A stretch of DNA of 13,878 nucleotides, taken from the NCBI GenBank assembly GCA_021828635.1, contig JAJZEJ010000643.1:1-13878 (forward strand), given 5' to 3'. The translations under genes and the position numbers were made by a program. Numbering within the stretch: position 1 is the first letter of the stretch; the number at the start of each line of letters is the position of its first letter. This document shows, piece by piece, positions 4,185-10,947 of this stretch. The notes beneath the pieces were generated by a model that was given only the letters and a program-made list of their open reading frames with translations, ran no database searches and was not told the DNA's origin. This stretch comes from Chloroflexota bacterium (GTDB lineage: Bacteria; Chloroflexota; Ktedonobacteria; Ktedonobacterales; Ktedonobacteraceae).

Positions 4185-4209
4185 TGGGCGTGATTATGTA
4201 ACACGCCCA
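4185..4209. repeat. Hairpin between fadD and fadE, resembling the GGGCGTG palindromes elsewhere in the window
   Basis: TGGGCGTG (4185-4192) pairs perfectly with CACGCCCA (4202-4209) over a 9-nt loop. The arm GGGCGTGAT is the same as in the hairpin before fadA (6219-6238), but no GTAG head is visible here. It is followed closely by the fadE ribosome site AAAGGAG (4211-4217), with no T tract, so it is more likely a degenerate repeat or an mRNA-stability hairpin than a terminator. Confidence 0.6.
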
Positions 4210-6214: not shown

Positions 6215-6238
6215 GTAGGGGCGTGATTTATCACGCCC
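6215..6238 (+). repeat. GTAG-headed REP-like palindrome upstream of fadA
   Basis: GTAG (6215-6218) is followed directly by an 8-bp perfect stem, GGGCGTGA (6219-6226) / TCACGCCC (6231-6238), with a 4-nt TTTA loop. A GTAG tetranucleotide at the foot of an imperfect palindrome is the known signature of REP elements mobilised by RAYT (TnpA-REP) transposases. It ends 22 nt before the fadA start codon. Confidence 0.55.
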
Positions 6239-6260: not shown

Positions 6261-7457
6261 ATGCCAGAAGCAGTGATTGTCAGTGCTGTGCGCACGCCGA
6301 TTGGGCGTGCTAATAAGGGCGTATTAAAGGATGTGCGAGCTGATGACCTGGCCGCCTTCGCCATCAAGGCCGCGCTGGATCGCGTGCCGGAGTTAGATCG
6401 TTCGTTAGTCGAAGATGTCATTCTTGGTTGTGCCTTTCCCGAAGGTGAGCAGGGCATGAACCTGGCGCGTATCGTCGCCATTCTGTCCGGTCTGCCAGAG
6501 ACGGCGGCGGGTGTGACCGTCAATCGCTTCTGTGCCTCTAGCCTGCAAGCTTTCAACATGGCGGCGCAGAATGTCATGCTCGGCCTGGGCGATGTCTTTG
6601 TGGCGGGTGGCGTTGAGAACATGTCGCGTGTACCGATGGGCGGTTTCAATCCGTCATTCAATCCACGTCTCGTCAAAGCAGTCGAGGGCGAGCCATATTC
6701 TTCACCTTACCCGCCCGCGCCGCAAGATTTCGCACCAGCTAGCTATATACCGATGGGCATTACCGCCGAGAACCTGGCCCGCGAGTACCATATCAGCCGC
6801 GAGGAGCAGGATCGTTTCGCCTTGCGCAGCCACCAACGCGCTCTTGCCGCGATTGATGATGGCACCTTCGCGCGTGAGATCACGCCCGTGCCATTGCCCA
6901 ATGGCACATTGATGACCACAGACGAGGGGCCACGCCGCGATACCTCGTTGGAGCGTTTAGCCACACTTGAACCCGCTTTCTTGAAAGGTGGCACCGTTAC
7001 GGCTGGCAATTCCAGTCCGTTGAACGATGGAGCCGCCGCACTCGTCGTCATGTCGGCTGAAAAGGCCCGTGAGCTTGGCATCAAGCCACTGGCCAAAGTC
7101 CACACGATGGCGGTCGCCGGAGTCAGGCCCGATATCATGGGGATCGGGCCTGTACCCGCGATTCACAAAGCTCTCCAGCGTGCCGGTATGCAGTTGAGCG
7201 ATATCGAGGTGATCGAACTCAACGAAGCCTTCGCCGCGCAGTCGTTGGCCGTCGTCAGGGCGCTCAATCTGAATGAAGAGACGCTTAATCCGCATGGTGG
7301 CGCGGTTGCGCTAGGTCATCCGCAGGGGTGTAGTGGCTCGCGTATCGTCGTGACACTGCTCAATGATTTGCAGAGCATGAACAAGACGATAGGCATGGCG
7401 ACGCTATGTGTCGGCGGTGGTCAGGGCGTCACGACGATTATCGAGAGGTTGGCCTAG
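6261..7457 (+). CDS. fadA: Acetyl-CoA C-acyltransferase (3-ketoacyl-CoA thiolase)
   Basis: This 398-residue thiolase cleaves 3-ketoacyl-CoA with CoA to acetyl-CoA and a shortened acyl-CoA, the last step of each beta-oxidation turn. The catalytic residues are all visible: nucleophile Cys91 in VNRFCASSLQAF, His353 in NPHGGAVALGHPQGCSGSR, and Cys383 in CVGGGQG, plus the ELNEAFAAQ loop. Length is typical of degradative thiolases. The ATG at 6261 is chosen because GAGGAG lies at 6248-6253 with 7-nt spacing; an in-frame ATG at 6240 would put the start inside the repeat end and has no comparable site. The stop is 2 nt before the fadN start, so the two are almost certainly co-transcribed and may form a trifunctional beta-oxidation complex. 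Biosynthetic acetoacetyl-CoA thiolase is less likely given the neighbours. Confidence 0.95.
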   Translation: MPEAVIVSAVRTPIGRANKGVLKDVRADDLAAFAIKAALDRVPELDRSLVEDVILGCAFPEGEQGMNLARIVAILSGLPETAAGVTVNRFCASSLQAFNMAAQNVMLGLGDVFVAGGVENMSRVPMGGFNPSFNPRLVKAVEGEPYSSPYPPAPQDFAPASYIPMGITAENLAREYHISREEQDRFALRSHQRALAAIDDGTFAREITPVPLPNGTLMTTDEGPRRDTSLERLATLEPAFLKGGTVTAGNSSPLNDGAAALVVMSAEKARELGIKPLAKVHTMAVAGVRPDIMGIGPVPAIHKALQRAGMQLSDIEVIELNEAFAAQSLAVVRALNLNEETLNPHGGAVALGHPQGCSGSRIVVTLLNDLQSMNKTIGMATLCVGGGQGVTTIIERLA

Positions 7458-7459
7458 CC

Positions 7460-9901
7460 ATGACGTACCAGATTCGCAAGGTGGCCGTGCTGGGCGCGGG
7501 CGTGATGGGTGCCGCGATTGCCGCGCATCTCGCCAATGTCGGCATTTCTAGCCTGCTGCTTGATATTGTGCCGCAAGGGGCGAAAGATCGCAATATAATC
7601 GCCAAAACTGGTCTTGAGAAAGCTCTGAAAGCACGACCTGCCGCCTTTTATAGCAAACGTAGCGCCGCTCTCATCACTGTTGGCAACATTGAGGATGATC
7701 TTGCGAAACTTACGGAGGTTGATTGGGTGATCGAGGCCGTAGTTGAACGCCTGGATATCAAACATCCTCTGTACGATAAAGTCGAAGCCGTCTTGAAGCC
7801 CGGCGCAATCATTACATCGAATACCTCTGGTTTGCCCGCGCATCTGCTGGTCGAGGAGCGTAGCGCGGCGTTCCGCCGAAACTTCCTTATCACGCACTTC
7901 TTCAATCCCGTGCGCTACATGCGTTTGCTGGAACTGGTACCGTGCGCCGATACCGATCCGGCTTTGATGACGTTTATGCAGCAATTCGGAACAGAAGTAT
8001 TGGGCAAAGGTGTGGTGTTGTGTAAGGATACGCCAAATTTCATCGCCAACCGCATCGGCGTCTACGGCTTCGTCTCCGCGCTGCAACGCGCTTTGAGCGA
8101 AGGTTATAGCGTCGGTGAGGTGGACGCTATTCTGGGGCCAGCGATGGGACGCCCCAAATCCGCTCTGTTCCGCACGACCGACCTGTCCGGCCTGGACACT
8201 ACCGCGCATGTTGCCACCAATCTGTATCAAAATGCACCCAACGATGAGCAACGCGAAACTTTCCGCGTGCCAGCGTTAGTGCAGGAAATGCTCAAGCGCA
8301 ACATGCTGGGTGAAAAGACCAGTCAGGGTTTCTATAAGCGCGTCAAAAATGCCGATAGCTCATCAACTATCCTCGAATTGAACCTCAAGACGCTGGAATA
8401 CGAGCCGCCGCAGAAGGTGCGCTATCCCTCGCTCGGTGCGGCACGTAATATCGACGATCCGGCTGAGCGCACGCTGGCTGTTCTCAATGGCGATGACCGT
8501 GCCAGTCAATTCGCCCGCGAGACGACCGCCGATACGCTGATCTATGCCGCCAATCGTGCGCCAGAGATCGCTGAAAGCATTGTTGACATCGATAACGCCC
8601 TACGCTGGGGTTTCAACTTTGACATGGGGAGTTTCGAGGTCTGGGATCTGCTCTTGCAGCATCCCGCGACCTTCGAGAGAGTCTTCGAGGGCCGCCAGCT
8701 ACCGGAGCTTGTTGAGCGTGTGCGGACGCAAGGACAAGGTACATTCTATAGCGGAGAGACGGGCCAGCGTTCCTACTTCGATTTCCAGACAGCATGGCAC
8801 CCACAAGGGGTGTCACTACATGTAGCGACACCCCTTGTGGGTGCCGTGTCCTACAAACCTGTTCCGCAACCGCAGGGCGTCATTTCGCTACCCACGCTCA
8901 AGACCAATAATAAGGTTGTGCGCGGCAACGGCTCGGCGGTGTTGATCGACCTGGGTGATGGCATTGGCTGTGTCGAGTTCCACACGAAGATGAACTCGAT
9001 TGACGAGGGTATCATTGAGATGATGCGCTATGCCGTGGAAGAGGGTCAGCAGCAGTTCCGCGCGTTAGTTCTTGGCAACGAGGCGGCGGACTTCTCTGCC
9101 GGAGCTAATCTCTTCCTCGTGCTGATGGGGGCGCGTCAGGGCGAGTGGCAGATGCTTGAGAACGCCATCAACGGTCTGCAACAAGCGCACCAGATGCTCA
9201 AGTATAGTCCCATTCCTGTTGTGGCTGCTCCGGCTGGTCGCGCTCTCGGTGGTGGCTGTGAGATTATCATGCATAGCCAGCACGCTCGCGTTGTCGCCGA
9301 ATCCTATATTGGTCTCGTCGAGGTCGGTGTTGGCCTCATTCCGGCTGGCGGTGGCTGTAAAGAGCTACTCTTGCGACAAGGGGCGAGTTTAGAGTCGCAG
9401 ATGGCGCGTAAAACGGGTGGACCTTTCACGCCGTCGCGCAAAGCCTTCGAGATCATCTCCTTCGCCACCGTCTCGACCAGTGCCGCCGAGGCACAGGAGT
9501 ACCGTTTCTTGCGCAAAACCGACGCTGTGACAATCAACCGCGACCTGCTGCTGCGCGATGCCAAAGCTGACGCTATTAAGCTGGCCGATGCCAAAGCGGC
9601 GGGTAAATGGCAACCAGCCAAACCACAGATGCTGCTCTTACCCGGTCCTGGCGCACGCATGGTGTTAGAGCAACAGATCGAGAACATGCTACTCTTGGGC
9701 AAGGTCAGCGAGCATGACGCCGTGATTGGGCGCAAGCTAGCTTATGTGTTGACGGGAGGTGAAACCTCGCCCGTCATGCCGCTCAGCGAGCAGCAAGTAC
9801 TTGACCTCGAACGCGAAGCCTTCCTCAGCCTGTGTGGCATGGAGAAGACGCAAGAGCGTATGCAATCCGTCCTGATGAGCGGCAAGCCGCTACGGAACTA
9901 A
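7460..9901 (+). CDS. fadN: FadN-type bifunctional 3-hydroxyacyl-CoA dehydrogenase / enoyl-CoA hydratase
   Basis: This 813-residue enzyme hydrates trans-2-enoyl-CoA and oxidises the 3-hydroxyacyl-CoA with NAD. The dehydrogenase is N-terminal (GAGVMG at 12-17; catalytic His146 in THFFNP and Glu158 in LLELV) and the crotonase-fold hydratase is C-terminal. This is the order of Bacillus FadN (YusL) and the reverse of E. coli FadB. The hydratase keeps the oxyanion-hole loop DFSAGANL (544-551) and both catalytic glutamates, Glu601 (GGGCEIIM) and Glu621 (GLVEVGVGLIP), so both activities should be intact. Residues 446-462 (WHPQGVSLHVATPLVGA) are encoded by a palindromic repeat inserted in frame just before the conserved YKPVPQPQGVISLP linker. 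The ATG at 7460 starts 2 nt after the fadA stop, with GAGAGG at 7443-7448 inside fadA. A strong terminator follows the gene. Confidence 0.94.
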   Translation: MTYQIRKVAVLGAGVMGAAIAAHLANVGISSLLLDIVPQGAKDRNIIAKTGLEKALKARPAAFYSKRSAALITVGNIEDDLAKLTEVDWVIEAVVERLDIKHPLYDKVEAVLKPGAIITSNTSGLPAHLLVEERSAAFRRNFLITHFFNPVRYMRLLELVPCADTDPALMTFMQQFGTEVLGKGVVLCKDTPNFIANRIGVYGFVSALQRALSEGYSVGEVDAILGPAMGRPKSALFRTTDLSGLDTTAHVATNLYQNAPNDEQRETFRVPALVQEMLKRNMLGEKTSQGFYKRVKNADSSSTILELNLKTLEYEPPQKVRYPSLGAARNIDDPAERTLAVLNGDDRASQFARETTADTLIYAANRAPEIAESIVDIDNALRWGFNFDMGSFEVWDLLLQHPATFERVFEGRQLPELVERVRTQGQGTFYSGETGQRSYFDFQTAWHPQGVSLHVATPLVGAVSYKPVPQPQGVISLPTLKTNNKVVRGNGSAVLIDLGDGIGCVEFHTKMNSIDEGIIEMMRYAVEEGQQQFRALVLGNEAADFSAGANLFLVLMGARQGEWQMLENAINGLQQAHQMLKYSPIPVVAAPAGRALGGGCEIIMHSQHARVVAESYIGLVEVGVGLIPAGGGCKELLLRQGASLESQMARKTGGPFTPSRKAFEIISFATVSTSAAEAQEYRFLRKTDAVTINRDLLLRDAKADAIKLADAKAAGKWQPAKPQMLLLPGPGARMVLEQQIENMLLLGKVSEHDAVIGRKLAYVLTGGETSPVMPLSEQQVLDLEREAFLSLCGMEKTQERMQSVLMSGKPLRN
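8796..8845. repeat. 50-nt REP/BIME-like palindrome inserted in frame in fadN
   Basis: The left arm 8796-8814 is perfectly complementary (19 of 19) to the right arm 8827-8845. After one A/C mismatch (8815/8826) the centre CTACATGTAG (8816-8825) is itself palindromic. Each half is a GTAG-headed hairpin: GTAG at 8822-8825 followed by CACCC (8829-8833) / GGGTG (8839-8843), and its mirror image with CTAC at 8816-8819 and CACCC (8798-8802) / GGGTG (8808-8812). This is two REP-like units head to head. It encodes residues 446-462 of FadN without a stop or frameshift. Confidence 0.85.
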
Positions 9902-9906
9902 GAACC

Positions 9907-9962
9907 GTGTAATCAAAAAATCGTCGTATCTCAATGAGGTACGACGATTTTTTTGATTACAC
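9907..9962. terminator. Bidirectional intrinsic terminator between fadN and the minus-strand peptide gene
   Basis: A long stem runs from 9907 to 9932 and back from 9936 to 9962, with a 3-nt loop, one G-T pair and one bulged T. The arms carry an A6 tract (9915-9920) and a T7 tract (9948-9954), so it can act in both directions. It starts 6 nt after the fadN stop and ends 2 nt before the end of the convergent peptide gene at 9965. Confidence 0.88.
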
Positions 9963-9964
9963 AG

Positions 9965-10207
9965 TTACATACACCCCAACTGGCCCGGCGCGGCATCAGC
10001 GCAACCACAAGGGACACTGTAACCCAGGAAGGTCAGGGGAATGCCGAGGAAGGTCGGATAATGCTCGATCAGGCAACCACCCTGTACATATGCTAGATCA
10101 TCATCGCTGAGTTCTTTGATGCCTTGCGCTAGCTGCTCAAAAGATAATGCTTCCTGTTCCTTCACGCTAAAAGCCGAATGCTGGCGGTTAGGGATGTGCT
10201 GATTCAT
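9965..10207 (-). CDS. Small double-glycine leader peptide, putative RiPP or bacteriocin precursor (orphan)
   Basis: This 80-residue peptide has an N-terminal region ending in KELSDDDLAYVQGG (residues 31-44), which looks like the double-glycine leaders of class II lanthipeptides, mersacidin/Nif11-type RiPPs and class II bacteriocins. Such leaders are cut after GG by a C39-peptidase ABC transporter. The predicted 36-residue core (45-80) is hydrophobic and glycine-rich, with Cys at 45, 67, 69 and 79, a CGC motif and only three Ser/Thr. Disulfides, thioethers at few sites, or another modification are all possible. The ATG at 10207 is preceded by GAAAGGG (10216-10222, minus strand) with ideal 8-nt spacing; a TTG further out (10237) is less likely. 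No modifying enzyme, protease or transporter lies in the window. Its function is unknown; the leader assignment is by eye. Confidence 0.72.
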   Translation of the reverse strand: MNQHIPNRQHSAFSVKEQEALSFEQLAQGIKELSDDDLAYVQGGCLIEHYPTFLGIPLTFLGYSVPCGCADAAPGQLGCM

Positions 10208-10538: not shown

Positions 10539-10928
10539 ATGGAAGAAAAAACGTTAAATGCGAATGCTCGTGCAGTGCTGGAAATCTTAAAAACGGATCA
10601 CAATCATCCGACAGCTCTGGACCTGTACAGCAAAGTGCGACTCCAGCGTCCACATATTGGTCTGGCAACGGTGTATCGTATTCTGCACCAGCTTTCAGAG
10701 CAGGGAATTATCAGCGAGATCGGGCGTGATAGTGATACGCGCTATGATGCCAATACTGGTCGTCATGACCACGCGATCTGTACCAAATGCGGGGCGCTAC
10801 TCGATGTACCGGTCGAGATAGTTGTAGCTCAAGAAGCTCTGCGAGCGGCGGCCCAGGCATCCGGTATCGTCCTGACCTCGCATGAAGTCAGAATGTATGG
10901 CCTATGCCAGCAATGCCAGCAATCGTAG
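10539..10928 (+). CDS. Fur/PerR-family metal-dependent transcriptional repressor, PerR-like
   Basis: This 129-residue winged-helix metalloregulator has the DNA-binding region at about 23-60 (HPTALDLYSKV ... LATVYRILHQL). Two CxxC pairs (Cys81/Cys84 in HDHAICTKCG and Cys123/Cys126 in YGLCQQCQQS) would form the structural zinc site. Candidate regulatory ligands are His23, Asp70, His76, His78 and Asp89. These line up with the PerR set (His37, Asp85, His91, His93, Asp104 in Bacillus), and Asp rather than Glu at position 70 favours a peroxide-sensing PerR. Fur or Zur remains possible. The ATG at 10539 follows a weak AAGAAG ribosome site and a Fur box, suggesting autoregulation. Its stop codon TAG lies in the GTAG head of a REP-like hairpin. 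It probably controls oxidative-stress or iron genes and possibly the divergent peptide gene. Confidence 0.9.
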   Translation: MEEKTLNANARAVLEILKTDHNHPTALDLYSKVRLQRPHIGLATVYRILHQLSEQGIISEIGRDSDTRYDANTGRHDHAICTKCGALLDVPVEIVVAQEALRAAAQASGIVLTSHEVRMYGLCQQCQQS

Positions 10929-10947
10929 GGACCGATGTATCGCGTCC
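10925..10947 (+). repeat. GTAG-headed REP-like hairpin overlapping the PerR/Fur-like stop codon
   Basis: GTAG (10925-10928) contains the TAG stop of the regulator gene. It is followed by GGACCGA (10929-10935) pairing with TCG-C-GTCC (10940-10947) over a TGTA loop with one bulged C. The layout and several bases (GTAGGG, CG, GAT, TATC, CG, CC) match the copy at 6215-6238. Confidence 0.45.

Follow-up and report, generated by a model that had tools for sequence, protein, structure and literature searches.

A head-to-head dimer of a GTAG repeat within the reading frame of a fadN-type gene from Ktedonobacteria

The REP/BIME elements of E. coli are paired hairpins located between genes, and in REPINs, which are mobilised by RAYT transposases, a spacer flanked by two inverted REP units is copied as a whole. 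The available text of a survey by Di Nocera et al. (2013; PMC3733652) describes REPs with GTAG and CGTC tags, records GTAG repeats in Chloroflexi, and sets the GTAG REP superfamily at stems of 5-13 bp and loops of 2-20 nt (its Table 1). It also reports REPs that lie wholly inside open reading frames (ORFs) and REPs whose ends supply TAG stop codons, and flexible linkers or loops are proposed there as neutral sites for in-gene copies. Among the species of that survey, in-gene GTAG copies are most numerous in O. terrae, whose GTAG-17 dimers are arranged head-to-head with spacers of 1-2 bp. The in-gene repeats RPE-4 and RPE-6 of R. conorii are equated with CGTC repeats in the same text, which calls RPE-1 longer. 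Perfect inverted repeats of up to 284 bp inside coding genes are described, in the accessible part of PMC6649704, for nematomorph mitochondrial genes.

The palindrome analyzed here, built from two units of a repeat that we call REP-A, lies in frame within a fadN-type gene of a bacterium from the Ktedonobacteria; the window referred to below is the whole stretch of 13,878 nt that was studied. It resembles the GTAG REPs, including GTAG-17 of O. terrae, in its unpaired GTAG heads, short stem-loops, head-to-head order, near-absent spacer and in-frame location, a likeness judged from the architecture as described. The stem and loop sizes of REP-A fall into the range of the GTAG superfamily, and its unpaired terminal GTAG and head-to-head dimers fit as well. 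Unlike the O. terrae repeats, the fadN case comes with insert-free homologues and a site placed in a structural model, and it is the one clear in-gene case of REP-A that was seen. Paired hairpins are shared, by description, with the REP/BIME elements of E. coli, and two inverted units around a spacer are shared with REPINs; in contrast to the REPIN/RAYT system, the 14 loci scanned gave no matching transposase gene adjacent to REP-A. The original prediction had named the element REP/BIME-like, of which the REP-like dimer stands, but the term GTAG REP head-to-head dimer suits it better than BIME. As in the Rickettsia palindromic elements (RPE), a palindromic repeat sits in frame within a protein gene, but in the relative studied most copies of REP-A lie outside genes, and the window units are GTAG-headed and not CGTC-tagged like RPE-4 and RPE-6 (compared by tag description). 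The nematomorph coding palindromes are likewise perfect in-gene inverted repeats, but mitochondrial.

In-gene GTAG REPs are already known from other bacteria, and the fadN case is a clean new example, not a new phenomenon. Among the matches listed in the open-licence literature, no title dealt with elements of this kind, be it in Ktedonobacteria or in fadN. The present data extend in-gene GTAG REPs to the Ktedonobacteria and describe two repeat families there, REP-A and REP-B.

The palindrome in fadN and its absence from homologues

The window contains a beta-oxidation cluster with genes for an acyl-CoA synthetase, an acyl-CoA dehydrogenase, a thiolase and the FadN-type fusion protein, in which the Pfam domains 3HCDH_N, 3HCDH and ECH_1 are recognized. 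For fadN (Table 1) we chose the start common to its homologues; the ORF as called begins at 7406.

Table 1. Positions of fadN and of the GTAG repeats in the window
Feature	Position	Strand	Basis
fadN-type gene, fused 3-hydroxyacyl-CoA dehydrogenase / enoyl-CoA hydratase, 813 aa	7460..9901	+	ORF, Pfam, homologues
REP-A head-to-head dimer, 56 nt including CAT...GTG ends	8793..8848	.	inverted repeat; alignment
First REP-A unit, GTAG head pointing to the centre	8796..8819	-	family pattern and alignment of variants
2-bp spacer AT separating both heads	8820..8821	.	read directly from the sequence
Second REP-A unit, GTAG head pointing to the centre	8822..8845	+	family pattern and alignment of variants
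REP-B copy (GTAGGGGCGTGATTTATCACGCCC), just upstream of the thiolase ORF	6215..6238	+	pattern, 1 mismatch; chance expectation 0.00

The inverted repeat at 8793-8848 has arms of 28 nt with 93% complementarity and no spacer, and in its core (8796-8845) perfect outer arms of 19 bp enclose CACTACATGTAGC. Each half agrees with GTAGYGACACCCCTTGTGGGTG at every position, for which the chance expectation is 0.00 (200 shuffles). The predicted RNA fold of 8780-8860 reaches -51.7 kcal/mol (z -9.1), and 0 of 200 shuffles were equally stable. The palindrome is confirmed as a real feature. It bears out the original description of a near-perfect palindrome with 19-bp perfect arms that is made of two GTAG-headed hairpins in mirror orientation: the heads face each other across the AT, and the first 22 nt of each unit agree with the family pattern without mismatch. 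The layout CAT-unit-AT-unit-GTG equals that of the dimers found in the related genome G002 (see below) with the spacer cut to AT. Each window unit has a stem mismatch and a 5-bp fold, of -4.7 kcal/mol when taken alone versus -7.1 kcal/mol for the family consensus; the GTAG heads are unpaired in the predicted folds of REP-A units. When 8600-9100 was scanned with Rfam, only two microRNA matches were returned, which we dismissed as generic hairpin similarity on account of scores far under the gathering thresholds.

At the protein level, the insert comprises the 18 residues W446-V463 (WHPQGVSLHVATPLVGAV), corresponding to a net gain of 54 nt by alignment. It is in frame and free of stops, as had been predicted, but extends one residue beyond the 446-462 originally proposed. 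Besides the stop-free frame that is used, a second frame is open and the third contains one stop. To place the insert among homologues, we aligned all of the best 120 of 8000 scored proteins, the window's own protein included; residues 446-463 are missing in 119/119 of the other homologues among the matches listed. This includes the closest of them (P0002), a 795-aa protein that is 92% identical. The FadN loci of relatives number 45 (L001-L015 and L058-L087) and represent 36 distinct genes, nine loci in L058-L087 being duplicates of L001-L007, L010 and L011. At the insert stretch, 43 of the 45 carry no extra residue, L083 has one, and L012, from a distant relative, has two. A protein database search with residues 436-477, which reaches exact-word sharers only, returned the window's own protein alone (1 match among 3 candidates). 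A linker of the same length in orthologues, the finding that would have spoken against an insertion, was looked for in the 119 homologues and 45 loci, and none was seen. As judged from sequence comparison, the insert-free homologues together with the dispersed occurrence of the unit in a relative show that the palindrome arrived in fadN as an insertion.

REP-A in related genomes

The search for further copies, proposed originally for the host genome, was carried out in genomes of relatives, two of which have REP-A. One, G002, is the Ktedonobacterales metagenome-assembled genome of locus L002, whose FadN is 80% identical to that of the window; the other is G001. The 17-mer GACACCCCTTGTGGGTG occurs 34 times in G002, once in G001 and not at all in the other 45 of 47 genomes of the order, with 0 hits for the reversed control. 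A 19-mer of REP-A was present in 2/400 genomes sampled across the phylum, namely these same two. Allowing the 24-nt unit up to 3 mismatches raises the count to 56 matches in G002 and 3 in G001, and the reversed control gives 0; this supports the proposal that the fadN element is a REP-like pair, here of a dispersed repeat. A scan of IMG/VR yielded 6 stretches with the 17-mer, all lacking the GTAG head and differing from the 24-nt unit by 3-5 mismatches.

An alignment of 22 distinct rows (20 variants from relatives and both window units) gave a consensus with a 7-bp stem and a 5-nt loop. Both window units and 17/20 of the variants from relatives start with GTAG. The stem is paired in 92.9% of the cells of the 22 rows, and 4/7 of its pairs have changed on both sides, a number reached by 8/500 shuffles. 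The covariation score was reached by 0/500 shuffles; the count of additional pair types is unremarkable (131/500 shuffles). The aligned variants show REP-A to be a dispersed family of predicted hairpins with compensatory stem changes in G002.

Surveying dimers with up to 5 mismatches, and leaving out one G002 unit (C114), we found 17 distinct head-to-head REP-A pairs in the relatives, 16 in G002 and one in G001 (L091). Their spacers measure 20-35 nt (20-32 nt in G002), apart from one of 0 nt (L115). CAT precedes and ATG follows 16/16 of the G002 pairs, and the G001 pair has neither. In the 15 G002 pairs with a spacer, it begins with AT in 14/15 and ends with AT in 15/15. Other arrangements were limited to one same-direction pair (L117); L129 and L141 are overlapping hits of a single unit on both strands. 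The window's 2-bp spacer was found in none of these dimers, the nearest compact form being the spacer-free pair L115; its left unit is degenerate, and the pair resembles the product of an internal deletion. Several G002 pairs (L019, L024, L030 and others) lie within larger composite repeats that have outer arms of the TTTGACAGAGCACTAC type and short tandem repeats alongside; the TTTGACAGAGCACTAC-type composite is absent from the window element.

In the relatives, 52/59 REP-A units lie outside ORFs of at least 100 aa. The contexts of 58 units (55/56 from G002 and 3 from G001) include 6 units inside 5 such ORFs, none of which gave a Pfam match. The 59th unit (C114 of G002, in L029), which has no GTAG head, sits at the very start of a 311-aa TauE/SafE ORF (L029:1497-2432), whose TauE/SafE domain starts about 45 residues past the unit. 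A start at MGTLTLL just before this domain may place the unit upstream of the gene; for N-terminal REPs, the available text of PMC3733652 cautions that the true gene start may lie past the repeat. With 52/59 units outside ORFs and the 59th possibly upstream of one, REP-A copies outside genes are the rule, and a second mid-gene copy was not seen among the 59 units.

Site of the insert and origin of the dimer

To locate the insert in the enzyme, FadN was modelled with AlphaFold2 from a 58-sequence alignment, which gave five models with mean pLDDT values of 56.9 to 79.4, the best of them (79.4) with a pTM of 0.74. Residues 446-461 are modelled with pLDDT below 50 between the short strands 438-440 and 465-467; these low values arise partly because the other rows of the alignment lack the residues. 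We read the insert as a disordered loop predicted at the turn of a small beta-hairpin, and the model thus supports the flexible position suggested originally. Less exact was the placement at the linker: the insert does lie between the dehydrogenase and hydratase modules, but about 38 residues N-terminal of the ECH_1 match instead of at the domain border (distance from a Pfam run on the 831-aa frame, numbering shifted by 18).

Very probably, a compact REP-A head-to-head dimer inserted into fadN after the split from the closest sequenced relative and is most likely neutral. REP-A would have been placed in fadN through single-strand transposition of the kind ascribed to RAYT-type (Y1) transposases, or through a related process. 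The usual REP-A spacer of about 30 nt would have been reduced to 2 bp before or after insertion, and the insert may have persisted because the extra residues make up a floppy loop, flanked by two short strands, in the inter-module segment. Genes for Y1_Tnp proteins are present in 41/47 genomes of the order, and G002 shows one that is cut off at a contig end; neither REP-A nor REP-B was found near Y1 transposases when 14 of their loci were scanned at a tolerance of 6 mismatches.

That the insert was domesticated as a useful linker, or that the hairpin in the mRNA delays ribosomes between folding of one module and the next, would agree with the position between both enzyme modules and with the strong predicted RNA hairpin (-51.7 kcal/mol). 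We give these two proposals of the original prediction a slim chance. The insert is modelled as disordered, and it shows no sign of conservation, since it is missing in 119/119 other homologues listed and was not found in another protein. Domestication is unsupported, with no second insert-bearing protein in a search limited to exact-word sharers; ribosome pausing, which had the predicted RNA hairpin as its sole basis, is unsupported as well. Structured inserts in metabolic genes could also be harmful, and this one could be the first lesion of a decaying fadN, yet the 813-codon frame is intact, and fadN has 0 private changes at those alignment columns that are invariant across the remaining 57 rows (median over the 58 rows 1, maximum 7). 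Six among the closest homologues likewise have none. Base differences between fadN and L001 number 117, 66 and 409 by codon position (409/592 at the third; 18 insert codons excluded), an excess that also argues against decay, though most of these differences are older than the insertion and so the excess mostly predates it. The gene shows no decay, and a decaying fadN is very improbable.

An amplification or assembly artefact, in which an inverted fold-back created the palindrome, has to be considered because the window is apparently a contig of metagenome type. Fold-back, however, would copy fadN sequence and not a foreign repeat; the reading frame is preserved, and the identical type of hairpin unit is dispersed in an independent genome, which leaves an artefact hardly credible. 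Inverted repeats are common in the window (44 pairs), but most are imperfect and distant, and the next longest perfect arm with a loop of at most 12 nt measures 14 bp and is terminator-like. Given also that 0/200 shuffles match the fold energy, the probability of a chance inverted repeat or a local duplication within fadN is negligible; a chance origin of the palindrome had already been ruled out by the copies of the unit in G002. For the insertion of a REP-A dimer, the insert probably represents a tolerated 18-residue loop that is most likely neutral for the enzyme. In fadN, a mobile-looking palindrome turned protein sequence can be compared cleanly with the state that lacks it, with one enzyme, many insert-free relatives and a modelled loop able to absorb the insert.

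REP-B and further reading frames

The second GTAG family, REP-B (GTAGGGGCGYGATNNATCRCGCCC), is present in 14/47 genomes of the order and abundant in several relatives, with 130 matches in G001 as an example. Exact words from translated REP-B variants were compared with all 120 FadN proteins (95,020 positions). The only 8-residue match was VGARLIAP at residue 468 of P0055, which lies within the FadN inter-module segment about 20 residues beyond the REP-A insert site of the window; a protein search with this stretch returned P0055 alone (1 match among 46 candidates). Words of 5 residues matched 18 times, in many cases in other parts of the proteins, which makes GRDKS, found twice in P0027/P0028, a weak case. 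A third pattern, REP-C, had no word match in the 120 FadN proteins. Back-translation of FadN inserts gave palindrome arms of 13 for P0055 and 11 for P0076 versus a 95th percentile of 14, and this test was not discriminating. By eye, an N-terminal extension of P0065 (MPDQNVGTRFIAS, with VGTRFIAS) looks like a translated REP of the GTAGGGACACGATTTATCGCGTCC type before the usual start.

The gene contexts of 69 of 159 REP-B matches in G001 were examined, both-strand hits on one palindrome being counted apart, and 7 ORFs of at least 100 aa cover a REP-B copy. In an 875-aa PAS/histidine-kinase frame (L202:398-3022), REP-B is read in frame as MGVMNHAPT from residue 368. This site looks like a variable loop: from a comparison of 24 loci (35-49% identical), 23/23 of the homologues listed show gaps there that differ in size, and the exact gain is uncertain because the compared homologues are distant relatives. 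The REP-B-covering ORFs of L195 and L198 gave no Pfam match.

With somewhat less than even confidence, we suggest that several GTAG-REP families may repeatedly enter reading frames in Ktedonobacteria, with the FadN inter-module segment as a recurrent target. This draws on REP-A in the window, REP-B in P0055, possibly P0027/P0028, and P0065 by eye, the cases outside the window being protein sequences. If recurrent entry is true, small palindromes would provide a steady supply of new loops in Ktedonobacteria, as in Rickettsia; if several families keep hitting this one segment, fadN would lend itself as a simple test case for the gain of protein loops from mobile DNA.

Further hairpins were noted elsewhere in the window. 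Immediately 3' of fadN (9903-9966), nested inverted repeats with A and T runs are terminator-like. A hairpin without GTAG (4186-4208, GGGCGTGATTATGTAACACGCCC), perhaps a decayed REP-B, lies between the ORF for the acyl-CoA synthetase and that for the acyl-CoA dehydrogenase. A REP-like hairpin at 10925-10947 (GTAGGGACCGATGTATCGCGTCC) overlaps the 3' end of a Fur-family gene (10539-10928), and its GTAG provides the TAG stop codon of this gene, comparable to what the available text of PMC3733652 describes for GTAG REPs.
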